Positions 36,923-47,064 of a stretch of DNA of 55,066 nucleotides are shown here, piece after piece; position 1 is the first letter of the stretch; each line of letters starts with the position of its first letter. Made by a program: the position numbers and the translations under genes. Source of the stretch: an uncultured Oscillospiraceae bacterium (GTDB lineage Bacteria; Bacillota; Clostridia; Oscillospirales; Oscillospiraceae); the NCBI GenBank assembly GCA_944386975.1, contig CALXDC010000013.1:1-55066 (forward strand), given 5' to 3'. The notes below the pieces were generated by a model. The model saw only the letters and a program-made list of their open reading frames with translations. It had not been told where the DNA came from and searched no databases.

Positions 36923-37195
36923 ATGGTCACGAATTTCTTTTTGGGAGCCAACAGCGGCGGAGGCTTTCAGAGCCTCTATGACGGCTTCACAGACCCCGGG
37001 GGCCTGCGGGACCTGATGGTGCTGAAGGGGGGGCCGGGAGTGGGGAAATCTACCTTCATGAAGTACATCGGCCGCCGGGCGGAGGAGGCGGGGGAGGATG
37101 TGGAGTACATCTGGTGCAGCGGGGACCCGGACTCCCTGGATGGAGTTCTGCTGCCCCGGCTGGGCATCGCCGCGGTGGACGGCACCGCCCCCCAT
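36923..37195 (+). pseudogene. 5' fragment of a split P-loop ATPase gene (PRK06851-like)
   Basis: These 91 codons encode the start of a P-loop ATPase: FFLGANSGGGFQSLYDGF, then Walker A GGPGVGKSTFMKYIG, ending ...VDGTAPH. The reading frame continues into the element as unrelated residues and stops at 37327. The rest of the gene is at 46273-47064 in the matching frame, so joining ...DGTAPH to VVEPRFPAAADRY restores a protein of about 354 residues. The family is of unknown function. ATG 36923 has GGAGGG upstream. A truncated 134-residue product with an intact Walker A could still be made. Confidence 0.9.
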
Positions 37196-37217
37196 GACAC
37201 AGCATCATTAGGACACC
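37191..37217 (+). other. attL: left junction of the integrated element
   Basis: The core CCCATG (37191-37196) is shared with 46268-46273. Eleven bases inside the element is TTAGGACACC (37208-37217), the inverted complement of GGTGTCCTAA at 46248-46257 near the other end. The symmetric arms are what is expected of attP halves of a large serine recombinase. Confidence 0.85.
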
Positions 37218-37339
37218 CTGCGAAAAAAGTCAGTATTTGCAAGGGGTTGCGGGATCGGCTTTTGGACGGCACCAGCACCTGGCACGGTTACTTGGGACAC
37301 TTTTATGGGACAGGCATTCAAAAATAGGCGTAGCTGCTC

Positions 37340-37382
37340 AAAAAAATCAACTCGCTACCGATCATAACGAGTTGATTTATCA
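37340..37382. terminator. Hairpin inside the left end of the element
   Basis: AAATCAACTCG pairs with CGAGTTGATTT (37345-37378) around a 13-base loop, with A-rich bases on the left and TTTATC on the right. It looks like a bidirectional terminator that separates the ATPase fragment from the integrase. The rest of 37197-37412 contains no gene. Confidence 0.6.
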
Positions 37383-37412
37383 GATTAAGCCTCTGCCATA
37401 GGCACGTTCCAT

Positions 37413-37490
37413 CGGCGGCGGGATTCGAACTCACACAGTAATGCACGTAACGGATTTTGAGTCCGCTGCGTCTGACATTTCCATATGGGG
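37413..37490 (-). pseudogene. tRNA-Leu(CAA) remnant
   Basis: On the minus strand the sequence runs GGAAATGTCAGACGCA, GCGGACTCAAAATCCG (anticodon stem-loop, anticodon CAA), a long variable region, and GAGTTCGAATCCCGC (T-arm, one mismatch), as in tRNA-Leu. The 5' acceptor strand does not pair with the 3' side, so it is probably not functional. Such a 3' tRNA portion next to a tyrosine integrase commonly marks an old attachment site. Confidence 0.7.
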
Positions 37491-37575
37491 CAGCTTAAAA
37501 GTGAATATACACGGATTGTAAAGGGGAGTGCGCCTGGCCGTGCTCCCTTGACTTTATCTATTGGGAGGAGAAAAG

Positions 37576-38691
37576 ATGGTTGCAGGACACTTACAGCAGA
37601 AGAAAGGCTATTGGTACATGGTACTTAATTTGCATGACCAGGCCGGGAGACGAAAGACGAAGTGGATCGCCACCCATCTCCCGGTACCGGGCAATCGAAA
37701 GCGGGCGGAGGAACTGCTCTTTCAGACCCGGCATCAATACGCGGATTCCAAGGGGGAAAGTGGGCTGCTGTTTGCGGACTATATGCTCCAGTGGCTGGGG
37801 ACCATGAAAGCAAAAGTATCCCCCACGACCTATACCGGCTATCGGAATCTGGTGGAAAACGGCATCTGCCCTTACTTTCGAGAGAGGCGTATCACGCTGG
37901 CCGGGCTACGCGCGTCAGATGTACAGAGATATTACGACGATCTCCTTGCGTCCGGGGTATCAGGCAATACGATTCTCCACCATCACGCCAATATCCACAA
38001 GGCACTGAAAGACGCAGTGCGGCTGGACCTGGTGGATCGAAATGTAGCCGACATCGTGGAGCGGCCGAAGAAAACACCCTATATCCCGCGGTATTACTCA
38101 CTGGAGGAGGCAAATGAACTGCTGGACAAGCTCCGGGGCCACTGGCTTTGGCTGCCCGTGATGCTGTGCCTGTTCTACGGCCTGCGCCGCAGCGAGGTGC
38201 TGGGGATTCAATGGCGGAGCATTGATTTCTCCGTGGGCACCATCCAGATCCAGCATACCAGGGTCTATCAGGAGGTGGACGGCCGAAAGGTCTCCATGGG
38301 GAGGGACACCATGAAACAGAAAGCCAGCTGCCGCACGCTCCCCATGCCGGAGGAGATCGCCGCCGTTTTACAGGAAGAAAAACAAAGCCGCTATGGAAAG
38401 GAAACTCCGCCGCTAGAGAACTACCTCTGCCTGAATTCGGAGGGAGAGCCCATCGCATCCAACTACCTCAGTCAAAGCTTCAAAGAGTTTCTCCGGGATC
38501 ACGGTCTGCGGGAGATCCGCCTGCATGACCTCCGGCACACCTGTGCCTCCCTCCTGATCCAGAAGCGGACGCCCCTGATTGAGGTGCAGCAATGGCTGGG
38601 ACACAGTACGCTGTCCACAACGGCAGACCTATATGCCCACCTGGAATATGAAACAAAACTGGCCAGCGCACAGACGCTGAAAAAAATTTAA
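37576..38691 (+). CDS. Tyrosine recombinase / phage-type integrase
   Basis: The 371-residue protein is a site-specific recombinase. It has an N-terminal arm-binding region (about 1-60), a core-binding SAM-like domain (about 65-155), and a catalytic domain with the active arginine in YGLRRSEVLG (about 201-210), the HDLRHTCASLL box, and WLGHSTLSTTADLYAH with the last histidine and the nucleophilic tyrosine. The catalytic set looks complete. ATG 37576 has GGGAGGAG just upstream. It lies next to a tRNA-Leu remnant, which is the usual target of such enzymes, but the element that now occupies the site appears to have been moved by the serine recombinase at the other end. Confidence 0.93.
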   Translation: MVAGHLQQKKGYWYMVLNLHDQAGRRKTKWIATHLPVPGNRKRAEELLFQTRHQYADSKGESGLLFADYMLQWLGTMKAKVSPTTYTGYRNLVENGICPYFRERRITLAGLRASDVQRYYDDLLASGVSGNTILHHHANIHKALKDAVRLDLVDRNVADIVERPKKTPYIPRYYSLEEANELLDKLRGHWLWLPVMLCLFYGLRRSEVLGIQWRSIDFSVGTIQIQHTRVYQEVDGRKVSMGRDTMKQKASCRTLPMPEEIAAVLQEEKQSRYGKETPPLENYLCLNSEGEPIASNYLSQSFKEFLRDHGLREIRLHDLRHTCASLLIQKRTPLIEVQQWLGHSTLSTTADLYAHLEYETKLASAQTLKKI

Positions 38692-38706
38692 CTGGAGGAA
38701 TATTCC

Positions 38707-39021
38707 ATGACGATTCATGGGAATTTGAAAAGCCTGTCGGTGGAGGATCTGGCACTCACCAAACGGTATTACGAGAGCATCCAGCCCTTTGAAGTCCAGC
38801 CCAGCGATACCTATGAGTTTGACGCGGAGTTCCCCGCCGAAGACGGAGAGCGCATCATCGCGGAGATCACATTGAACGAAAACGCAGAGATAGAGGATCT
38901 GTACTGCACCTGCCGCGCCGGCGGTTTCTGCGTTCATTTGGCGGCGATGATGTACAATATGGAGGAGCGTAAGACGGTGCTCTTTTTAAATGGTCTTGCT
39001 CGACAGAATATTCGCGTTTGA
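38707..39021 (+). CDS. Small protein with SWIM-type zinc finger motif
   Basis: The 104-residue protein has a CxC..CxH motif, YCTCRAGGFCVHLAAMMY (Cys-x-Cys, five residues, Cys-x-His), which is the core of the SWIM zinc finger. The preceding part has the typical beta strands of that fold (YEFDAEFPAEDGERIIAEITL). SWIM domains bind DNA or protein and are found in MuDR-type transposases and Swi2/Snf2 helicases. Here the domain is almost alone. ATG 38707 has GGAGG upstream and follows the integrase by 15 bases, so it is probably co-transcribed and may assist it; no helicase partner is present. Function is otherwise unknown. Confidence 0.7.
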   Translation: MTIHGNLKSLSVEDLALTKRYYESIQPFEVQPSDTYEFDAEFPAEDGERIIAEITLNENAEIEDLYCTCRAGGFCVHLAAMMYNMEERKTVLFLNGLARQNIRV

Positions 39022-39104
39022 GGCTTGGCTTGTAATGAAAACTATGACAAGCAATCTTTTGAAATCATGTATCAAAACGACAATAAACTCCTATTTCTTA
39101 TGGC

Positions 39105-39848
39105 TTATTCTGGCTGTGTGATGTCATTGCTGTCGGCGTAGACGTGGGGCCGTTCCTGATAATTGGAAACCTGGTAATTGCCGAGAGCAGAATAATCCTT
39201 GGCTTTTGATGGATTGGTTTCCAGTTCATCATCCAACAGACCAGCGGCATCAAAGTAGATGTTTTCCAGATACTCATATTTGGAGTACATTCCCTGTGTG
39301 CACCAGACCAGTGCATTTCTTACATAGGCTGCGTGTTCGGCAAACAGGTCGTAGTCCAGTTCGATACCTATCTTTGCGGAAAGCAAAACGGAGAATGCGA
39401 TCACCGCACGGGTGTTACCCTCACGGAAGGGATGCGTCTGCCAAATCGCCGCAGTGATACGGACGATTTTGAACAGCAGAATCTTGGGATCTTCTGAATA
39501 TTTGAGCTTCGAAATCTCCTTAGATGCCATATCCAACTGCTTTTTGATGTCTTCCGGCTGAGCATAGCGTACTGTGTCGCCGCCTAGAACATCCTCACGT
39601 TTCATGATATTGATGGTGCGGAATTCACCTGCCCATTCATAAATACCGCCGAAAATCGTACGGTGGATCTGACGCAGCGTATCGGTATTGAATTTGAAAT
39701 ATTCCTGGGCGTAGACGATTCCCATGGTCATTCTGGTCAGATCGCCCTCAATGCGTTTTAACTCCTCGCTGTTTTTGACCCCCGGAGTATTTTTCAGAAC
39801 TGGAACATCGTCATAGAGGTACGGATCTTTGTGCCAGCTGTTTTTCAT
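39105..39848 (-). CDS. fic: Fic-domain toxin (probable AMP transferase)
   Basis: The 247-residue protein has the Fic fold with the active motif HPFREGNTR (about 139-147), the standard lead-in IHRTIFGGIYEWAGEFRTINI (positions 61-81, given here in parts: IHRTIFGGIY and EWAGEFR), and the post-motif helix FSVLLSAKIGIELDYD. The catalytic histidine and the anion-binding GN-R are present, so it should transfer AMP or another nucleotide group to a protein target. It has no internal inhibitory helix at the N-terminus, which fits a class I enzyme with a separate antitoxin. ATG 39848 has GGAGGT upstream and overlaps the antitoxin stop by four bases. A C-terminal tail of about 45 residues is unassigned. 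Confidence 0.9.
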   Translation of the reverse strand: MKNSWHKDPYLYDDVPVLKNTPGVKNSEELKRIEGDLTRMTMGIVYAQEYFKFNTDTLRQIHRTIFGGIYEWAGEFRTINIMKREDVLGGDTVRYAQPEDIKKQLDMASKEISKLKYSEDPKILLFKIVRITAAIWQTHPFREGNTRAVIAFSVLLSAKIGIELDYDLFAEHAAYVRNALVWCTQGMYSKYEYLENIYFDAAGLLDDELETNPSKAKDYSALGNYQVSNYQERPHVYADSNDITQPE

Positions 39849-40375
39849 CGGAATACCTCCATTGCACCATAGTTCTGCAAAGCCGGAAGATAGAAATCGG
39901 CAAAGGCCTTCTCACCCTTAGCCCAAAGTTGAAGGTTTTCTTCGGTAGTTTCTTTGGCAGGGAGGCCTTCCAAAGAAGTCATTGCTCTTGCAAAAGAAAG
40001 CGCTTTGGTTCGTTTGGAGATAGGCAGAGCATCCATGTCAGCGCACTGCCGTAAATAGAAGAAGATGTGGCTAAGTTGCTCATCTAATATCTTGACTGCT
40101 TTCTCCAAGCGATCAAGGTTAGCATTATTGGCATCGAGTTCTTTTTGAAGAGATTCTCTAATAGTTAACTTATCGCGAACAGATTGAACTTCAGTTTCTC
40201 GGAGATATTCACTTTTCTTTTTCCCTAAATAGGTGTATTGCAAATAATAGTACTCTTTTCCAGAGATTTTCTTGGTTGTGATGTATCCTCTAGGAATAGC
40301 GTTTAAGCGCTGCTTCAACTTCGTCTGAGAATATAGGAGCACAGAATACTCATTATAGAGTTCTTGATACTTCAT
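39845..40375 (-). CDS. Putative Fic antitoxin (VbhA-like C-terminus)
   Basis: The 176-residue protein precedes fic and overlaps it by four bases. Its N-terminal half is a charged helical region with a short beta segment (GKEYYYLQYTYLGKKKSEYL) that resembles DNA- or nucleic-acid-binding proteins of mobile elements. Its C-terminal part, SFARAMTSLEGLPAKETTEE followed by GEKAFADFYLPALQNYG, is arranged like the VbhA-type inhibitory helix with a (S/T)..EG core, although the serine is not at the exact class position. I infer that it blocks the Fic ATP site and may repress the operon. ATG 40375 has GGAGGGG upstream. Confidence 0.65.
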   Translation of the reverse strand: MKYQELYNEYSVLLYSQTKLKQRLNAIPRGYITTKKISGKEYYYLQYTYLGKKKSEYLRETEVQSVRDKLTIRESLQKELDANNANLDRLEKAVKILDEQLSHIFFYLRQCADMDALPISKRTKALSFARAMTSLEGLPAKETTEENLQLWAKGEKAFADFYLPALQNYGAMEVFR

Positions 40376-40399
40376 GATTGCCCCTCCTTAATTGTAGAT

Positions 40400-40429
40400 A
40401 TAATATCACAAATTAACCCCTTAAATCAA
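40400..40429 (-). promoter_or_regulatory. Promoter of the antitoxin-fic operon
   Basis: On the minus strand TTGATT, 18 bases, TATTAT. It lies just ahead of the antitoxin start and is AT-rich like the surrounding cargo. Confidence 0.6.
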
Positions 40430-40501
40430 TAAAAACTTTAATAGGGAGGTTAAAACGACCTGTAATACGCATACTGAGCATTACATTATAAGAATTTCTG
40501 C

Positions 40502-40542
40502 AAAAAATAAGACAAGGACATCGGAGTAGATGTCCTTGTCTT
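40502..40542 (-). terminator. Terminator of the TPR-PIN gene
   Basis: A perfect 14-bp stem (AAGACAAGGACATC / GATGTCCTTGTCTT) is followed on the minus strand by ATTTTTTG. The TPR-PIN gene is therefore transcribed separately from the Fic operon. Confidence 0.92.
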
Positions 40543-40549
40543 ACCAAAT

Positions 40550-43500
40550 TTATTTAATCCTGCCATAGAGATTATTTTTGCTTTGCAGTCTTTCTTTTAT
40601 TCCCCCTAGAACAATACTTTTCAACGCAGTATATTGTTGCCATTTCTCTGCATCATTCGGAAAGATTTCTTTAATGCCCACCAAAACTGTACGTACATAG
40701 TGAAGTATCATGGCTGCTTTCTCTAGCGCTTTTGAATCATCATAAGTCTTCGCGGTTTCTCGATAATATGTTCCTCTGCGCCAAACGCGGAAAGTATCAT
40801 CGAGTATAATTTTAGCAAGCGAAACAGCTGCATCTTCATGAGCGTTGTTTAGAGTGTTGATTGCTTGTAAATATACAATAGCAAAGCTTTCCATGTCATA
40901 ATCCGACTTACAGATTAAAAATGGGCTTAAGAAATCTGTGGAGACATTGAACTCATGAGTTGCAATCTGTTCAAGTATAGTGCTAGCATTGAAGCTAATA
41001 AATGTACAACCCTTTAGAAGGCGGTAAAGCATCTGATTCTTTTGACCTTGTTGGCTTTCTTCCAAGCAATTACACAACGCAGGAATACTGATGAAATCTA
41101 TACCAGAAAGCGGGCTGTCTTTAGAAATCATCTGGAATGTAATCACTAAAGCATCTGAGTATAGGACTGGAATCTTTTTCTTTCGGGCCACATTGCATCC
41201 GGCGATAAAATCTTTCGAGAAGAGTTCTACCATTTTATCTTCAGCAATGAATCCGTCTGCCTCATAAACAATGTTATTCGATGACTGGAGCCAATCCATC
41301 AGTGACTGAATCTGCGGATCATTCCAAGCAAGATGTTGGCATTGCAATGTGACCACAGAACTAAATGTGATATGCAGGTGTTTAACACATTGCAGCGCAG
41401 CTAAACAATCATAATGTGCCAAAATGATCAATGTTTGAGCATCTACAACCAAATGATCGCCTATGAGTTCTTGCTCAAGATTAAGTTGTTTTATATTTCC
41501 GTGTGAAACTTTAAGCTTGTTTTCTGCTGCAAATTGAAAAATTCTCCACCAATCATTGTTATAGTATTTAAGTAAAACATTGATAGGTATAATGCCCTGC
41601 TTATATTGTGATGCAATTTGGCGTTCTAACTCTTGGCGATTTTTTTGATTTGGGAAGTGTTTGTCTAGCTGCTGGCTGATAGATTCTAAGGGATTTCCCG
41701 TTTCGCTTATGCTAACCTCCTGTATCCAATTGATAACAACAGGGTGTGTATGCTTGTATTCCAATACCGTTGCAAAACCTTCGTGATGCCCACTACGAAA
41801 AGAACGCCCCCAAAATGCAGGGTGACTTTGATCATAAGGATTTTTTGACTTTAAATCATGGGCTTTTTTTGCCCAATCGTAGCTTTCATCCGGTTCCTTT
41901 TTCAGAAGATGAAGATCACTTATGAGCCAATAAATTTTTGCTCTTTCATCTTCAGTAGGATTATTATCCAACAGTATCTGGCATTCTTTTAAAGACTCAT
42001 CATAATTCAGAAGCCACCGATGACAAAGTGCTTTATTAAAACCATCCTGAAAAGAATGTGTTATTTTATACAGGTGGTTTAAGCTATCCAATAGCTGAGG
42101 AACATCATTAGTTGCGCAAGATAATGATGCTTTGATGTGGTAGTAGCATTCTTCTGAAAGAGACGACTTCTCTATCCTGTTGAAAAAATCTTCAGCGATT
42201 AACCGTTGGTTTCCAACGAAAAAGCTTATAGCGCCTTGATAGAATTGCTCTAGGTTATCGATTACGATGGCCTTTTCTTCATGAAGTTGTTGAACTCTTA
42301 GATATAGGATTTCGCATTCAGTCAAAAATTTATTTCGTTTATAAAAACGAATTGTGTTTTCCAGGGTGGAATAATCTTTAGATGTGGTGGCCACATTATC
42401 AAATAGTACCTTAGCCCGAGTGATGTCTCCGCTCAATTCGTATGCACACGCATCAAACGCATCAAATGGGAAATCGCTTACATCGGATGAAAGTGCAATA
42501 TCCTTATATTTCCAATAATCTTCAGGCATTTTGAGGATCAAACAGACTTGCAGCAAGATAAGTAGTAATGGTGAAGATACGGTTTCTTTTTCTTCGTTTA
42601 ACAGCTTTTCGAGTTCTGTTTTGCATTCTAAGAACTTTTCGCACTCTAACAGATTCCTTATTTGAAAATACTTTCGATCTTGGTCTTTAAGCTGAGAAAC
42701 CGTTTCTGTTGCTAAATCTCCACGATACCCCAATATAAGTGCTCGCTTCGTTTCATAATCACGAGCAAAGGAAAGATATTTTTCTACTGGAGACAATTCG
42801 TGCTGTGACCCTAACAGCGTACATGCAGAGATATACAAAGATAATGCAGCTTCTTTTACCTGGAGAAGAGATGGTCTTTCAAATATTCCTGCCTCAAAGC
42901 ATTGCTTCAACTCCGATTTGACATAGAGCATTTTTTTAATGTCAATTTGAGGAAACAAAACACGTTGGTCGCGAGGAAGATTTATCGTGGCTTGACCATA
43001 TTTCGCGGCCAACAGATTAAATTTAACAACAGAGGAATTGCGTGTATACGCGAGAGCACTTTCAAAATCTTGCTCAGCAGAAAACGGATCTCCGCTAACT
43101 TGGTATATTAACCCGCGCTGTACATAGAAGTCAGCAATTAACTCACGATCATTGCTTTCTCCTAACAGGGAAGAAAAATGTTCATCTAATTTTTTAATAA
43201 TGTCAGTGTGGGCTACTTTGGATGTGAGTGCGTAAAGGTACTGTCTAAGTAAAAATGCACGATGATATGCATCATCGATTTCTAACGCCCGATCCAAGTG
43301 CTGTTCTGCGGTGTCGTATTTGGATGAAATGGCATGCTGAATAACGATAGAAGCATAGACAAAGTGATATGTTTTGCTATCTTCAGCAACTGGTTCAGAA
43401 ATAGTATCCAGACTTCTGAATGCCTTTTCTGTATCTCCTAAATTCGACTGACAAAGTGCAATATTACAGTACAAAGAGCAGATAAGCGCGTCGATTTGAT

Positions 43501-44224
43501 CTTCTGGTTGATTTCGTAATTTGGTAGCAATAGATTGAAGCAATTCGTAATATCTCAATAATGCCTCATCCATAAGATCCTTTTGCTGGTACTCTGTTTC
43601 AATTTTCTTGATTTCTTCTGTAAATGCGGTGACTTCCTTAGAGCAGTCAACAAGTTCTTGCTTGGTGGTATCGGCGACGCTCTGTTGAGAAGATAGTTGT
43701 TGACATATGAGATCTAGCTTTTTTGTATTTTCCATCGAAATCGCATAATTTCGATTATCACGAAATTCACTTTCGTTCTCGAATTGAGTTAGGGTACTTT
43801 GTAATTTTCCTATGTCAGAGTGAGGATTAAGAGTGTTAATTTTTAGGGATACAGCATCAAAAATTTTCTCAAATATTCTGCATACTTGAGAATGTTGAAC
43901 AGGTTTTTGCCTATATTTTGGGTATTGCGATAAAAAGTATTTTTCATTTTCTCGAACAAATCTGGTTCTAGAATTGGGTTGCAGACAGCCGGTTCCCCTG
44001 ACCGATGCTATTACGTTTTTAATAACGTTATTTTTTGTAATATATCCATCAAAATCATTATAAAATGGTTCAGTTCCATAGGTTTCTAAAAGCTCTGTTA
44101 CAATGCTTTCTTCAAGACTTTTGTCAACGAAATTACTATCAATAAAGGCTGCAGTAGCATTCTCTGCTTTGGAAGTTAAGATTCTATCTGTAACTACACC
44201 AACAAATTTTTCAATGATGGACAT
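40550..44224 (-). CDS. 1,224-residue TPR-repeat protein with C-terminal PIN-like domain
   Basis: This very long protein is AT-rich (well below the host GC). Residues 1-150 form an unassigned helical N-terminal domain. Residues about 220-870 are a long alpha-solenoid with TPR-like units (examples: LYCNIALCQSNLGDTEKAFRS, AEQHLDRALEIDDAYHRAF). Residues about 922-1060 look like a PIN nuclease domain: strand LVVDAQTLIIL with Asp near 928, acidic residues around 970-1000, and IPVLYSDALV with Asp near 1024. The architecture resembles the TPR-GreAB-C-PIN conflict proteins described by Aravind and colleagues, though I cannot confirm the middle domain. An RNase effector controlled by a TPR sensor is an inference. 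ATG 44224 has GAGGT upstream; no partner gene is in the transcript. Confidence 0.75.
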   Translation of the reverse strand: MSIIEKFVGVVTDRILTSKAENATAAFIDSNFVDKSLEESIVTELLETYGTEPFYNDFDGYITKNNVIKNVIASVRGTGCLQPNSRTRFVRENEKYFLSQYPKYRQKPVQHSQVCRIFEKIFDAVSLKINTLNPHSDIGKLQSTLTQFENESEFRDNRNYAISMENTKKLDLICQQLSSQQSVADTTKQELVDCSKEVTAFTEEIKKIETEYQQKDLMDEALLRYYELLQSIATKLRNQPEDQIDALICSLYCNIALCQSNLGDTEKAFRSLDTISEPVAEDSKTYHFVYASIVIQHAISSKYDTAEQHLDRALEIDDAYHRAFLLRQYLYALTSKVAHTDIIKKLDEHFSSLLGESNDRELIADFYVQRGLIYQVSGDPFSAEQDFESALAYTRNSSVVKFNLLAAKYGQATINLPRDQRVLFPQIDIKKMLYVKSELKQCFEAGIFERPSLLQVKEAALSLYISACTLLGSQHELSPVEKYLSFARDYETKRALILGYRGDLATETVSQLKDQDRKYFQIRNLLECEKFLECKTELEKLLNEEKETVSSPLLLILLQVCLILKMPEDYWKYKDIALSSDVSDFPFDAFDACAYELSGDITRAKVLFDNVATTSKDYSTLENTIRFYKRNKFLTECEILYLRVQQLHEEKAIVIDNLEQFYQGAISFFVGNQRLIAEDFFNRIEKSSLSEECYYHIKASLSCATNDVPQLLDSLNHLYKITHSFQDGFNKALCHRWLLNYDESLKECQILLDNNPTEDERAKIYWLISDLHLLKKEPDESYDWAKKAHDLKSKNPYDQSHPAFWGRSFRSGHHEGFATVLEYKHTHPVVINWIQEVSISETGNPLESISQQLDKHFPNQKNRQELERQIASQYKQGIIPINVLLKYYNNDWWRIFQFAAENKLKVSHGNIKQLNLEQELIGDHLVVDAQTLIILAHYDCLAALQCVKHLHITFSSVVTLQCQHLAWNDPQIQSLMDWLQSSNNIVYEADGFIAEDKMVELFSKDFIAGCNVARKKKIPVLYSDALVITFQMISKDSPLSGIDFISIPALCNCLEESQQGQKNQMLYRLLKGCTFISFNASTILEQIATHEFNVSTDFLSPFLICKSDYDMESFAIVYLQAINTLNNAHEDAAVSLAKIILDDTFRVWRRGTYYRETAKTYDDSKALEKAAMILHYVRTVLVGIKEIFPNDAEKWQQYTALKSIVLGGIKERLQSKNNLYGRIK

Positions 44225-44292
44225 ACGGGTACCTCGCTTTTTGCAAATAAATGAATCCCCATTAACCCCAAATTTAGTGGATTTTTGTATTT

Positions 44293-44321
44293 AGTATACC
44301 ATATATAGGATATGAAGACAA
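44293..44321 (-). promoter_or_regulatory. Promoter of the TPR-PIN gene
   Basis: On the minus strand TTGTCT, 17 bases, TATACT, about 65 bases before the start codon. Confidence 0.65.
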
Positions 44322-44434
44322 CAAACATATTTGCGTTAGATGGTAGGTATAATCATAAACTGAGCAGATGCATCGGCATCTGTTTTTTCATATCCAAAAT
44401 CGTACATTCATAAAATTTCTTGGAGGTGTTTCTT

Positions 44435-44551
44435 GTGAAAGAATCAATATTTATCCTAGCAGAGCAACGGCAGTCAAATCCCGAGGATTTAACTATCGCC
44501 ATTATCCAACAAACCATCACTGCCTGGCTCACAAAAGAACTCACCAAATGA
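44435..44551 (+). CDS. 38-residue protein upstream of the serine recombinase
   Basis: A short frame starts at GTG 44435, with TGGAGGTG 6-9 bases upstream, and encodes 38 residues that begin VKESIFILAEQRQSNPE and end WLTKELTK. It is too short for usual gene calling. A good ribosome binding site, a protein-like amphipathic composition and its place immediately before the recombinase make it probably real. Function is unknown; a recombination directionality factor or a leader peptide are both possible. A stem-loop directly overlaps its stop codon. Confidence 0.5.
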   Translation: MKESIFILAEQRQSNPEDLTIAIIQQTITAWLTKELTK

Positions 44552-44583
44552 TCCCTACGTTACGTTTTTTGCGGCGTAGGGAT
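44551..44583 (+). terminator. Stem-loop between the 38-residue gene and the recombinase
   Basis: ATCCCTACG pairs with CGTAGGGAT around a 15-base loop that contains T6. The bases after it are TTTCAAATAATTTC. It could be a weak terminator or an RNA structure that controls recombinase expression. Confidence 0.4.
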
Positions 44584-44663
44584 TTCAAATAATTTCTTGC
44601 CGCATAGCTGCTCTCAGTGTTAAGATGTAACTGAGCAGTTACGCCTTTTAGGAGGTGTGACAT

Positions 44664-46217
44664 ATTCTTTGTGCGATCTATACACGACTGAGTAAGGAGG
44701 ACGAAGACAAGCAGCAAAAGGAATCCGAGAGTATCCAGAACCAGAAGTCCCTGCTGATCCACTACGCCGTGGATCGGGGATGGGACATCTACCACATCTA
44801 TTGCGATGAGGACTACTCCGGCGCCGACAGCCTGCGGCCTGACTTCAACCGGATGATCCGGGCGGCCCAGGAAAAGAAGTTTCAGATCCTCCTCTGCAAG
44901 AGCCAGTCCCGGTTTACCCGGGACATGGAACTGGTGGAAAAGTACATCCACGGCCTGTTTCCCATCTGGGGAATCCGCTTCATCGCCGTGGCAGACAACG
45001 CTGACACGGAGATCAAGGGCAACAAAAAAGCCCGCCAGATCAATGGACTCATCAACGAGTGGTATTTGGAGGACCTGTCGGAGAACATCCGCATGGTCTT
45101 TGACATGAAGCGGCGGCAGGGGCAGTACATCGGCGGCTTTCCCATCTACGGCTACCGGAAGGACCCGGACAACAAGGGTCATCTCCTGGTGGACCCGGAG
45201 GCGGCGGAGGTGGTGCGGCAGATCTTCCGCTGGTCCCTGGAGGGCCACGGCAAGCAGAGTATCGCCCACATGCTCAACGATCTGGGGGTGGTCAATCCCA
45301 CCCGGTACAAGGCGGAGCGGGGCTGGGACAGCAATCACTTCTGCAAGCAGGATTTCGGACTCTGGAACAAGAATACCGTATGGCGGATCCTCCGCAATGA
45401 GATCTACACCGGCGTCATGGTGCAGGGCCGGACCAAAAAGGCCAGTTACAAATCCAAGGCCATCATTGTCATGCCCCGGGACCGCTGGTTCCGGGTGGAG
45501 GGCACCCACGAGGCCATCATCGACCGGGAGACCTTTGAGACCGTCCAGCGGAATCTGGACATCCGCTCTCGGGAGGACGGTACCGGCATGGTGCACCCTC
45601 TGGCAGGCCTTGTGAAGTGCATGGACTGCGGCAGCACCATGAGCAAGACTTCCAACGGGAAAAAGGGGAAAGGACGGGTGTATTATCTGCGCTGCAAGCT
45701 CTACGCCGACAGCGGGACGCAGAAGCTGTGTACCCGCCACTCCATCCGGCTGGACCGACTGATGGAGCTGGTCTCCCAACGCATCCGGGACTACATCGGG
45801 GCGTACTACCATTTAGAGGATCTGGAACTCCCGCCGCCAAAGGACGACCACCGGGAGGCCCTGCTGCTGGAACAGCGCACCCTGAGCGCCCAGTTGGAGA
45901 AGCGGAGCACGGCCCTGAAAAACCTGTACCTGGATAAGATTTCCGGCGTGCTCAGTGAAGGACAGTTCGTGGAGCTGAACCAGGATTTTCTGGCGGAAAA
46001 AAGCCGCCTGGAGCGGCGGCTGGCCCAGATTGATCAGGAACTCTCCGGGCAGGAGCAGCCCCGCAATCAAGAAGAGGTCATGGCCAAGGCTCGGGAGTTG
46101 CTGGAGCTGAAGACCCTTCCCCGGGAGCTGGCGGTGATGCTGATCGAGAAAATCGAGATTGGTGAGCAGGACCCAGAAACAGGCCGGCAAGAGGTCAAAA
46201 TACACTGGAAATTCTAA
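44664..46217 (+). CDS. Large serine recombinase (site-specific integrase), apparent ATT start
   Basis: The enzyme has the resolvase catalytic domain (CAIYTRLSKEDED with the nucleophilic Ser near residue 10, then RMIRAAQEKKFQILLCKSQSR), the recombinase domain (GHGKQSIAHMLNDLGVVNP, NEIYTGV), a zinc ribbon (CMDCGSTMSK, then C..C downstream) and a C-terminal coiled coil. The first in-frame ATG is 44769, but starting there would lose the catalytic serine. The frame is open back to 44661; the only plausible start is ATT 44664, which has AGGAGG at 44650-44655, eight bases upstream. This gives 517 residues, normal for the family. It ends 50 bases from attR, as expected for the enzyme that inserted the element. 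Confidence 0.88.
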   Translation: MLCAIYTRLSKEDEDKQQKESESIQNQKSLLIHYAVDRGWDIYHIYCDEDYSGADSLRPDFNRMIRAAQEKKFQILLCKSQSRFTRDMELVEKYIHGLFPIWGIRFIAVADNADTEIKGNKKARQINGLINEWYLEDLSENIRMVFDMKRRQGQYIGGFPIYGYRKDPDNKGHLLVDPEAAEVVRQIFRWSLEGHGKQSIAHMLNDLGVVNPTRYKAERGWDSNHFCKQDFGLWNKNTVWRILRNEIYTGVMVQGRTKKASYKSKAIIVMPRDRWFRVEGTHEAIIDRETFETVQRNLDIRSREDGTGMVHPLAGLVKCMDCGSTMSKTSNGKKGKGRVYYLRCKLYADSGTQKLCTRHSIRLDRLMELVSQRIRDYIGAYYHLEDLELPPPKDDHREALLLEQRTLSAQLEKRSTALKNLYLDKISGVLSEGQFVELNQDFLAEKSRLERRLAQIDQELSGQEQPRNQEEVMAKARELLELKTLPRELAVMLIEKIEIGEQDPETGRQEVKIHWKF

Positions 46218-46247
46218 GAAATGTGGGGCCCCGCCGAAGCCCTGTGA

Positions 46248-46273
46248 GGTGTCCTAAAGGGACAATACCCATG
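46248..46273 (+). other. attR: right junction of the integrated element
   Basis: GGTGTCCTAA (46248-46257), ten spacer bases and the core CCCATG (46268-46273). It mirrors attL. After excision the ends would join as GGTGTCCTAA-N10-CCCATG-N11-TTAGGACACC, a symmetric attP. Confidence 0.85.
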
Positions 46274-47064
46274 TGGTGGAGCCCAGGTTCCCGGCGGCGG
46301 CGGACCGGTATGTGGACCTGGGACGGTTTTACGACGTAGACGCGCTGAAAACCAGGCGGGGAGAGGTGGAGGAGCATACCGCCGCCTGTTCCGCCGCCTA
46401 CCGCCGGGCCTACCGGGCGTTCCGGGCGGCGGAGGAGGTGGCGGAGGAGCTGCGGGAGCAGGTCCTCCCCGGCTGGGACCGGGAGAAGCTCCTCAAGCGG
46501 ACCGACGGCATCCTCCGGCGGGAGCTGCGGAAACAGGGAGGCGGCACAGGGACCTGCCGGGAGCGGTTTTTGGGAGGAAAGACCTGTAAGGGTGCGCTCT
46601 GCCGCTACGACGCCGCCCTGGCCCTGGCTCCTCGGGCCTATCTGCTGCTGGACACCTGGGGGCTGGGGGATATGATGCTGCAGCGCATTGCCGAGGAGGC
46701 GGCAATACGGGGCTATGACGCCATCCGCTGCCCGGACCCGGAGCATCCCCGGCGGCTGCGCCATCTGATTCTCCCGGAGGCGGGACTTTGCTTTCTCACA
46801 GAGGAGGGGTCCTTCCCGGAAACGCCCTACCGCCGTCTCCATCTGGACGCCCTGCTGGCTCCCCAGCGCCAGAGCCGGGCGCGCATCCGTTTCGGCCGCC
46901 GGATGAGCCGGGCTCTCACGGAGGAGGGCATGGAGGCTCTGGCCCAGGCCAAGGCCAGCCACGATCTGCTGGAGGCAGTATACCACCCCTATGTGGACTT
47001 CGACGGAGTGGAGGCCCTGGCCCGCCGGGAGTGGGCGCGGATTGAGGCCCAGCTGGACCGTTGA
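46273..47064 (+). pseudogene. 3' fragment of the split P-loop ATPase gene (PRK06851-like)
   Basis: This is the rest of the ATPase that begins at 36923. It starts after the core with VVEPRFPAAADRYVDLGRFYD and runs to a normal stop, with a long helical coiled region (TAACSAAYRRAYRAFRAAEE), LLLDTWGLGDMML, CPDPEHPRRLRHLILPEAGL and a C-terminal helix. It shows no internal stop codon or frameshift, so the disruption is probably recent and excision would restore the gene. On its own it has no ribosome binding site at the junction and is unlikely to be translated. Confidence 0.9.

Follow-up and report, generated by a model that had tools for sequence, protein, structure and literature searches.

Is the giant TPR protein encoded in a mobile element of an uncultured Oscillospiraceae bacterium a one-gene defence system, and if so, which of its parts would sense and which would act? 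We addressed this question in a 55,066-nucleotide stretch of contig CALXDC010000013.1 (the window), for which an earlier note, made from the sequence alone, had proposed a one-gene sensor-effector with an unassigned N-terminus, a TPR solenoid and a PIN-like, RNA-cutting C-terminal end.

The gene and the element that carries it

The protein, here termed P0001, is encoded by a 1,224-residue open frame that exactly fills positions 40550..44224 of the minus strand. Over the blocks common with one relative, from which residues 321-740 of P0001 are absent, dN/dS is 0.11-0.23, and the gene is under purifying selection over these blocks; it is a genuine gene. It is AT-rich, as had been remarked, with a GC content of 37.6% against 64.0% in the window outside 36.9-47.06 kb. 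Its own terminator was likewise recovered: an intrinsic terminator read from the sequence at 40503..40545 (minus strand), with a 17-bp hairpin and a U tract starting at most 5 nt from the stop, has a stability of -26.8 kcal/mol (z = -6.06), equalled by none of 200 shuffles in the hairpin test. This terminator is absent from the list produced by a simple terminator scan. The proposed promoter did not hold up: a promoter scan places a TTGTCT-17-TATACT site before the gene at 44321-44293, but such sites are no commoner in the region than expected (15 found versus 16.3). The description of the gene as lying alone applies to it as a separate transcript, but not to its surroundings, where a Fic/antitoxin pair runs in the same direction 174 bp beyond, past the terminator.

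The mobile setting is well defined. The gene lies in a 9,077-bp element (37196..46272) that interrupts a PRK06851-family gene; CATG marks each junction, and a short inverted repeat, TTAGGACACC, lies close to both ends. The left half of the interrupted gene (36923..37192, plus strand) matches positions 5-91 of the family profile (E = 1.3e-22, 80.6 bits) and the right half (46273..47064, plus strand) positions 94-356 of the same profile (E = 3.2e-17), the family cut-off of 689 bits being for the whole protein. On its plus strand the element codes for a tyrosine integrase (37561..38691; Pfam Phage_integrase, E = 3.5e-25), a 104-residue ORF (38707..39021) with a weak SWIM zinc-finger match (E = 2e-4, 21.3 bits, cut-off 19.6) and a large serine recombinase (44664..46217; Pfam Recombinase, E = 4.4e-28). 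The latter also matches XisF (6.6e-29) and CcrB (3.2e-27), both far below their cut-offs, and probably uses an ATT start, read by eye, the listed ORF beginning at 44769. The TPR gene and the Fic/antitoxin pair are cargo of this element. In a Dysosmobacter MAG the same PRK06851-family site is filled, the conserved gene being split at the same codon in the two genomes; there the TPR gene is broken and has decayed, and the Fic pair is intact. Homologues of P0001 are not confined to core genes: of the two relatives found, one is in an element of the same kind at the same site and the other beside a hipA-like gene. The element, splitting a conserved gene, offers a defined place to seek more such cargo.

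P0001 is rare among the genomes sampled. Searches with the whole protein in overlapping genome sets recovered its own genome alone in two sets (1/60 and 1/299), its own genome and G644 in a third (2/394) and G1087 in a fourth (1/300); within its own genome P0001 is the sole match, and a profile of the N-terminal region matched 1 of 391 genomes, again its own. Neither P0001 nor its pieces found a homologue in plasmids and phages, or in viral contigs, where the scans require exact 7-8-residue patterns. The whole protein matches no defence family in PADLOC, NCBIfam or PHROGs, making it a rare single-gene candidate not flagged by the PADLOC defence library.

The TPR solenoid and the C-terminal end

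The proposed TPR solenoid was confirmed by Pfam TPR_2 (E = 4.1e-9) and TPR_1 (E = 3.1e-7), both above cut-off; TPR_12 (E = 1.8e-6) falls slightly below its own. The best stretches are residues 251-269, 302-317, 364-396 and 730-792, and the positions of the outermost matches set the limits of the solenoid at residues ~245-795 (41840..43492, minus strand). A TPR motif scan, with four matches, one of them at 1027, against a shuffle mean of 0.78 and maximum of 5, adds little to the Pfam matches.

The case for a PIN-like end rests on a putative stretch at residues 920-1040 (41105..41467, minus strand), recognized by motif only, in which D928, D1005 and D1024 supply three of the four acids in PIN order, with the usual second acid absent, and hydrophobic strands precede D928 and D1024. 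No PIN family was found in P0001 with Pfam, PADLOC, NCBIfam or PHROGs. Pfam-A, which includes the GreA/GreB C-terminal family, returned neither a PIN nor a GreA/B-C match for the whole protein (E <= 1) or for residues 860-1224 or 785-1224 (E <= 10). For profile alignment with hhalign we used 21 of 30 fetched PF01850 loci, leaving out L050, which is identical to L049, and L043, L044, L046, L047, L048, L051, L052 and L054, which we take to resemble PIN/TRAM proteins. Against these 21 sequences the alignment of residues 785-1224 falls elsewhere, and that of residues 915-1045 is equalled by 25 of 100 shuffles and exceeded by another window of P0001; against four of the six DUF3368 loci (L056, L057, L060 and L061), 89 of 200 shuffles were equally good. 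With no family match, shuffle-like profile scores and the second acid missing, neither the PIN-like end nor its RNA-cutting activity is upheld. We regarded as chance the weak Pfam matches of the relative's C-terminal piece (Endo_dU 0.063, ADP_PFK_GK 0.067, DUF4298 0.19). A search of PDB by sequence gave no usable match, its seven GCN4-type fusions (E = 0.18-1.6) and 50 distinct sequences (E = 0.15-3), of which 49 were prion entries, being likewise taken as chance. In the reading that we prefer, the C-terminal ~430 residues form another conserved region with a function of its own. This may be a divergent PIN-like domain, perhaps of weak catalysis, whose nuclease activity would be a prediction.

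These results bear on the suggestion that P0001 is of the TPR-GreAB-C-PIN type, in which a variable N-terminal effector and a TPR solenoid would be joined to a PIN RNase at the C-terminus, with the RNA of infected cells as its substrate. Both the TPR solenoid and a swappable N-terminal domain, common with an otherwise unrelated STAND protein, agree with it. Nevertheless, PF20698, the C-terminal PIN family of the class, was not detected in P0001 by hmmscan, and a six-frame search for this family was negative in the window's genome, in 199 genomes of the phylum, 226 of the class and 11 plasmids, the controls matching in 1 of 14 genomes (M. jannaschii only, below cut-off). Judged by sequence families, the N-terminal domain matches none of the domains named in the parts of PMC8195603 available to us. 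As neither PF20698 in this genome nor a GreA/B-C match was found, the proposed membership was not borne out; a divergent GreA/B-C domain may be present, and we consider this reading possible but doubtful. In the open-access literature neither 'TPR-GreAB-C-PIN' nor 'PIN-TPR-GreAB' is found in print, and no paper there unites TPR, a PIN domain, anti-phage defense, NACHT and the N-terminal domain.

The N-terminal domain and its STAND relative

The N-terminus had been described as unassigned. It indeed belongs to no Pfam family, and PADLOC, NCBIfam and PHROGs, searched with it as part of the whole protein, gave none, but a homologue could be found for it. A genome search with whole P0001 recovered a 974-residue NACHT-like STAND protein from a bacterium of the same order (E = 4.6e-11). 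Residues ~34-137 of P0001 (43814..44125, minus strand) are 33/103 identical to its N-terminus (E = 1e-12). Their Smith-Waterman score is 164, whereas 2000 shuffles average 35.5 and reach at most 69; the remaining parts of the two proteins score 49 with each other, as high as or lower than 112 of 300 shuffles. On this evidence we consider the two N-terminal domains homologous and the other parts of the two proteins not. We found only three carriers of the domain, whose invariant columns define a core at Y49-I72, YGxExxYNDxDxxxTxNNVIxNxI, with the conserved polar residues E52, N56, D57, D59, N65 and N66. Chance-level matches of the first 220 residues (PADLOC PDC-S47 0.011, Pfam AIPR_N 0.032), the resemblance of the N-terminal domains to PqqD (E = 0.06 and 0.19) and an oligonucleotide-cyclase model match of the STAND relative (0.0079), all too weak for use, were set aside, as was a membrane helix suggested by a moderate hydrophobic moment, chiefly in that relative.

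The STAND protein displays the motifs GEAGFGKT, LILDGIDDI and FFTTR. On its own it falls below the Pfam NACHT cut-off (13.4 versus 26.7 bits), and over residues 224-973 it aligns (E = 9e-28) with a protein of Lysinibacillus that carries a NACHT annotation. In plasmids one homologue was found for its whole sequence and none for its N-terminus; searches of phages and viral contigs gave none. At the position of the N-terminal domain the Lysinibacillus homologue has a trypsin domain (Pfam 1.3e-6, above cut-off); this protein matches Avs1b over 6-231 (8.2e-20), and the MBL gene before it matches Avs1a (1.4e-90). The accessible part of PMC12799240 attributes activation of the MBL nuclease to the trypsin-like protease with which such defence proteins are fused. 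Because an Avs1-type trypsin stands at the same position, the N-terminal domain occupies an effector slot, and by homology it is present on two scaffolds.

Its position at the N-terminus of a STAND protein could also suit a homotypic adaptor of the EAD/Death-like kind, which would recruit a STAND NTPase bearing the same domain, the TPR protein then being the sensor in a system of two parts. This would follow the 'EAD principle' of small N-terminal domains common to different conflict proteins, as described in the part of PMC8195603 available. However, when the window's genome was searched with a domain profile, no second carrier appeared at E <= 0.001. An effector is thus more likely than an adaptor that pairs with some other protein of this genome, although with 90.5% completeness a partner may have been missed. 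A search of the STAND protein's genome with whole P0001 gave, besides the STAND protein, one match at E = 9.35, outside the domain, and the conserved polar residues could equally form an active site. We therefore hold the adaptor improbable.

A candidate defence protein, its neighbours and known systems

The adjoining genes encode a 247-residue Fic protein with an HPFREGNTR motif (39105..39848, minus strand; Pfam Fic, E = 3.9e-13) and a 176-residue probable antitoxin (39845..40375, minus strand) with a weak Pfam VbhA match (E = 6.9e-5; 23.2 bits, below the cut-off of 25.9). The TPR gene, adjoining this pair, could serve element stability or regulation rather than defence. A role of P0001 as accessory to the neighbouring Fic/antitoxin module, or to the element itself (stability, transfer, regulation), would fit the shared strand and short spacing, their joint presence in two genomes at ~85% nucleotide identity (39088-42004, a single aligned block) and an element that carries little else, but we give it little credence in view of the strong terminator between them and an N-terminal domain that, being common with STAND proteins, points away from Fic systems. 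Moreover, the Fic pair does not need the TPR gene: beside the broken TPR gene of Dysosmobacter, the Fic frame (247 residues) and the antitoxin frame (176 residues) have both kept their full length.

We give an even chance to the reading of P0001 as a one-protein defence (conflict) system among the cargo of a small integrative element. The occurrence of its N-terminal domain on an immune-type ATPase from a different bacterium makes a one-gene defence protein probable. In this reading, with defence presumed to be against phage, the TPR solenoid would most likely serve to sense or dock a partner, which is probably either a protein of the invader or a host complex that has been disturbed; this would release or cluster the N-terminal domain, which would then act as an effector or recruit one. 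Since this reading overlaps with the TPR-GreAB-C-PIN and adaptor explanations, the likelihoods assigned to them do not sum to one. What is upheld of the one-gene sensor-effector originally envisaged is a rare, selected and mobile single large protein with TPRs and a separable N-terminal domain that takes the effector position in a NACHT-like STAND protein, as would be expected of a conflict protein; the RNA-cutting PIN end is not supported. More tentatively, the YGxExxYNDxDxxxTxNNVIxNxI domain might be an undescribed effector, carried by a NACHT-like STAND protein and an NTPase-free TPR solenoid, with P0001 founding a one-gene defence system whose divergent C-terminus is possibly PIN-derived. 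Should P0001 prove to defend, TPR-only sensors would be shown to work with effector domains known from STAND proteins. The domain itself is small and testable, and it is known in two settings, the immune-effector slot of a STAND protein and an unrelated scaffold.

Among known systems, VapC-type PF01850 and DUF3368 PF11848 proteins resemble P0001 in the order and spacing of three acids and in the hydrophobic strands, with no statistical similarity, and VapBC, a small PIN toxin paired with its own antitoxin gene, differs from a 1,224-residue protein with its own terminator and Fic and probable antitoxin genes adjoining. DefensePredictor DS-3 and DS-5, one- or two-protein phage defences with PIN and no classical antitoxin in the portion of PMC13092281 available, would be comparable if the end of P0001 is PIN; as described there, the PIN of DS-3 is split between N- and C-terminus, unlike P0001. 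With the TPR-GreAB-C-PIN proteins (PF20698), as far as PMC8195603 was accessible, P0001 has in common a large single-gene architecture, mostly without fixed neighbours, with a swappable N-terminus, a TPR solenoid and a conserved C-terminal part; it differs in that PF20698 and GreA/B-C are undetected, the second PIN acid is absent and the N-terminus has no Pfam family. Unlike the P-loop NTPases of Avs/AVAST and NACHT STAND systems, P0001 displays no Walker A motif or NTPase family match, and its TPRs follow the N-terminal domain with no NTPase in between; the likeness to Avs1 (MBL nuclease plus trypsin-STAND) lies in that domain, whose place in the STAND relative is that of the trypsin in the Lysinibacillus homologue.

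The TPR gene and its mobile element

A 1,224-residue frame occupies positions 40550-44224, as the earlier note had it; it lies on the minus strand and starts with ATG, and its product is the sole match to this protein in its own genome (2.66 Mb, 90.5% complete). The gene is indeed AT-rich, with a GC content of 37.6% against 64.0% in the window outside 36.9-47.06 kb. Pfam searches recovered TPR_2 (4.1e-9) and TPR_1 (3.1e-7) above their cut-offs and TPR_12 (1.8e-6) slightly below, in agreement with the proposed TPR solenoid, and no non-TPR family above cut-off. Of the transcription signals ascribed to the gene the terminator held up: a 17-bp hairpin, accompanied by a U tract and starting at most 5 bases from the stop, has a stability (z -6.06) equaled by none of 200 shuffles; this hairpin is missing from the output of a simple terminator scan. 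The promoter did not, as promoter-like sites around the gene, including a well-placed one at 44321-44293, are not above chance in number.

The left flank (36923-37192) encodes positions 5-91 of a PRK06851-family NTPase (a family named in PMC10949312) and the right flank (46273-47064) positions 94-356. Thus, the flanks code for one protein, and the 9,077 bp between them (37196-46272) constitute a mobile element, as had been claimed, inserted into a single gene. Both junctions carry CATG, with a short inverted repeat close to both ends. The element codes for a tyrosine integrase, a 104-residue ORF, Fic with its probable antitoxin, the TPR protein and a large serine recombinase, which in NCBIfam scores best against XisF, the excision recombinase of the fdxN element. 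An amidohydrolase gene and genes with domains of the primary sigma factor and of DnaG lie outside it, indicating that the insertion is chromosomal.

The serine recombinase (44664-46217) lacks ATG, GTG and TTG upstream of its conserved YTRLSKED start region. The codons between the in-frame stop and this region are CAT ATT CTT TGT GCG ATC TAT, with ATC in place of ATT in the Dysosmobacter counterpart; read by eye, ATT/ATC is the likely start codon. Beside the tyrosine integrase (37409-37490, minus strand) we noticed by eye a lookalike of the 3'-part of tRNA-Leu, with an anticodon-like loop and a GTTCGAATCC arm, reported by neither ARAGORN nor Rfam.

Rarity, selection and decay in a relative

Searches of overlapping genome sets with the full-length protein recovered only its own genome among 60 relatives and among 299 genomes of the phylum, its own and a second genome, G644, among 394 of the order, and G1087, a Dysosmobacter MAG, among 300 of the latter's family. 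No homologues were found in the plasmids, phages and viral contigs searched. One scan of genome contigs returned a single locus, from Dysosmobacter isolate Lapin-012, which is G1087.

The G1087 copy is broken, with about 420 residues gone, a frame change and a stop. Residues 1-103 lie at the end of one contig (64% identity), and residues 101-324, 741-787 and 785-1224 on a second (81-84%), the former being the more divergent. On these two contigs the element is flanked, by eye, by both halves of the PRK06851-family gene at the same codon; hence, the two pieces are likely parts of one copy. Full-length frames of Fic and its probable antitoxin are present in both genomes, and of the TPR gene in one of the two. 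Across the blocks common to both copies (residues 1-103, 101-320 and 785-1213) dN/dS is 0.11-0.23, which shows purifying selection in these blocks, residues 321-740 being absent from G1087. In the broken gene both contig ends share, by eye, a TTTTTCAAGGGTTT stretch adjoining non-homologous DNA and absent from the window, as if a repeated element lay at residue ~103.

An N-terminal domain shared with a STAND protein

In G644 the search hit the N-terminus of a 974-residue protein (L004:9875-12799), which aligns with residues 35-137 of the TPR protein (33/103 identical, E 1e-12). The N-termini give a Smith-Waterman score of 164 (2000 shuffles: mean 35.5, sd 6.0, maximum 69) and the remainders 49, a score reached by 112 of 300 shuffles; thus, one domain is common to two otherwise unrelated proteins. 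Residues invariant in three N-terminal sequences include Y49, G50, E52, Y55, N56, D57, D59, T63, N65, N66, V67 and I68. When the window's genome was searched with a profile of the domain, no further copy turned up at E <= 0.001.

The G644 protein contains the motifs GEAGFGKT, LILDGIDDI and FFTTR, which we take to be the Walker A, Walker B and sensor motifs of a STAND NTPase. By itself it falls below the Pfam cut-offs for NACHT (13.4/26.7 bits) and nSTAND3 (16.6/27.2 bits). Over residues 224-973 it aligns with a NACHT-annotated protein from a Lysinibacillus plasmid (E 9e-28, 24% identity), which exceeds the cut-offs for NACHT, nSTAND3 and Trypsin. The trypsin domain is N-terminal and matches Avs1b (8.2e-20), and the preceding gene matches Avs1a (1.4e-90). 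In Avs and Hachiman, according to PMC12799240, proteases of this kind switch on the MBL nuclease that belongs with them. The shared N-terminal domain thus lies at the position that an effector, the trypsin domain, takes in this homologue.

The Lysinibacillus genes, on Lysinibacillus fusiformis plasmid pG5.M11b_1 (L055:1986-6319), form an Avs1-like pair of MBL and trypsin-NACHT genes, annotated simply as MBL hydrolase and NACHT protein. The G644 gene is flanked by HipA-like and pRiA4b ORF-3-like genes (L004:7674-13423), the former accompanied by a small HTH-like ORF; polysaccharide-like genes come next (both by eye).

A putative conflict system and a known class of similar layout

The evidence best fits a conflict system made of one protein, with a TPR sensor, a modular N-terminal effector and a C-terminal part. 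What the data show directly is the gene with its TPRs, the sharing of the N-terminal domain and the effector position in a homologue, purifying selection across the common blocks, mobility, rarity among the genomes sampled and decay in a relative; from these it is inferred that the TPRs would constitute the sensor and that the modular N-terminal domain may act as the effector, in a putative defence role. The earlier note had tentatively suggested kinship to the TPR-GreAB-C-PIN class, which has the PF20698 PIN domain. Neither a match to PF20698 nor a GreA/B-C domain was found in the TPR protein; accordingly, we do not assign it to that class, and what stands is a layout similar to that of the class as described in an excerpt of PMC8195603.
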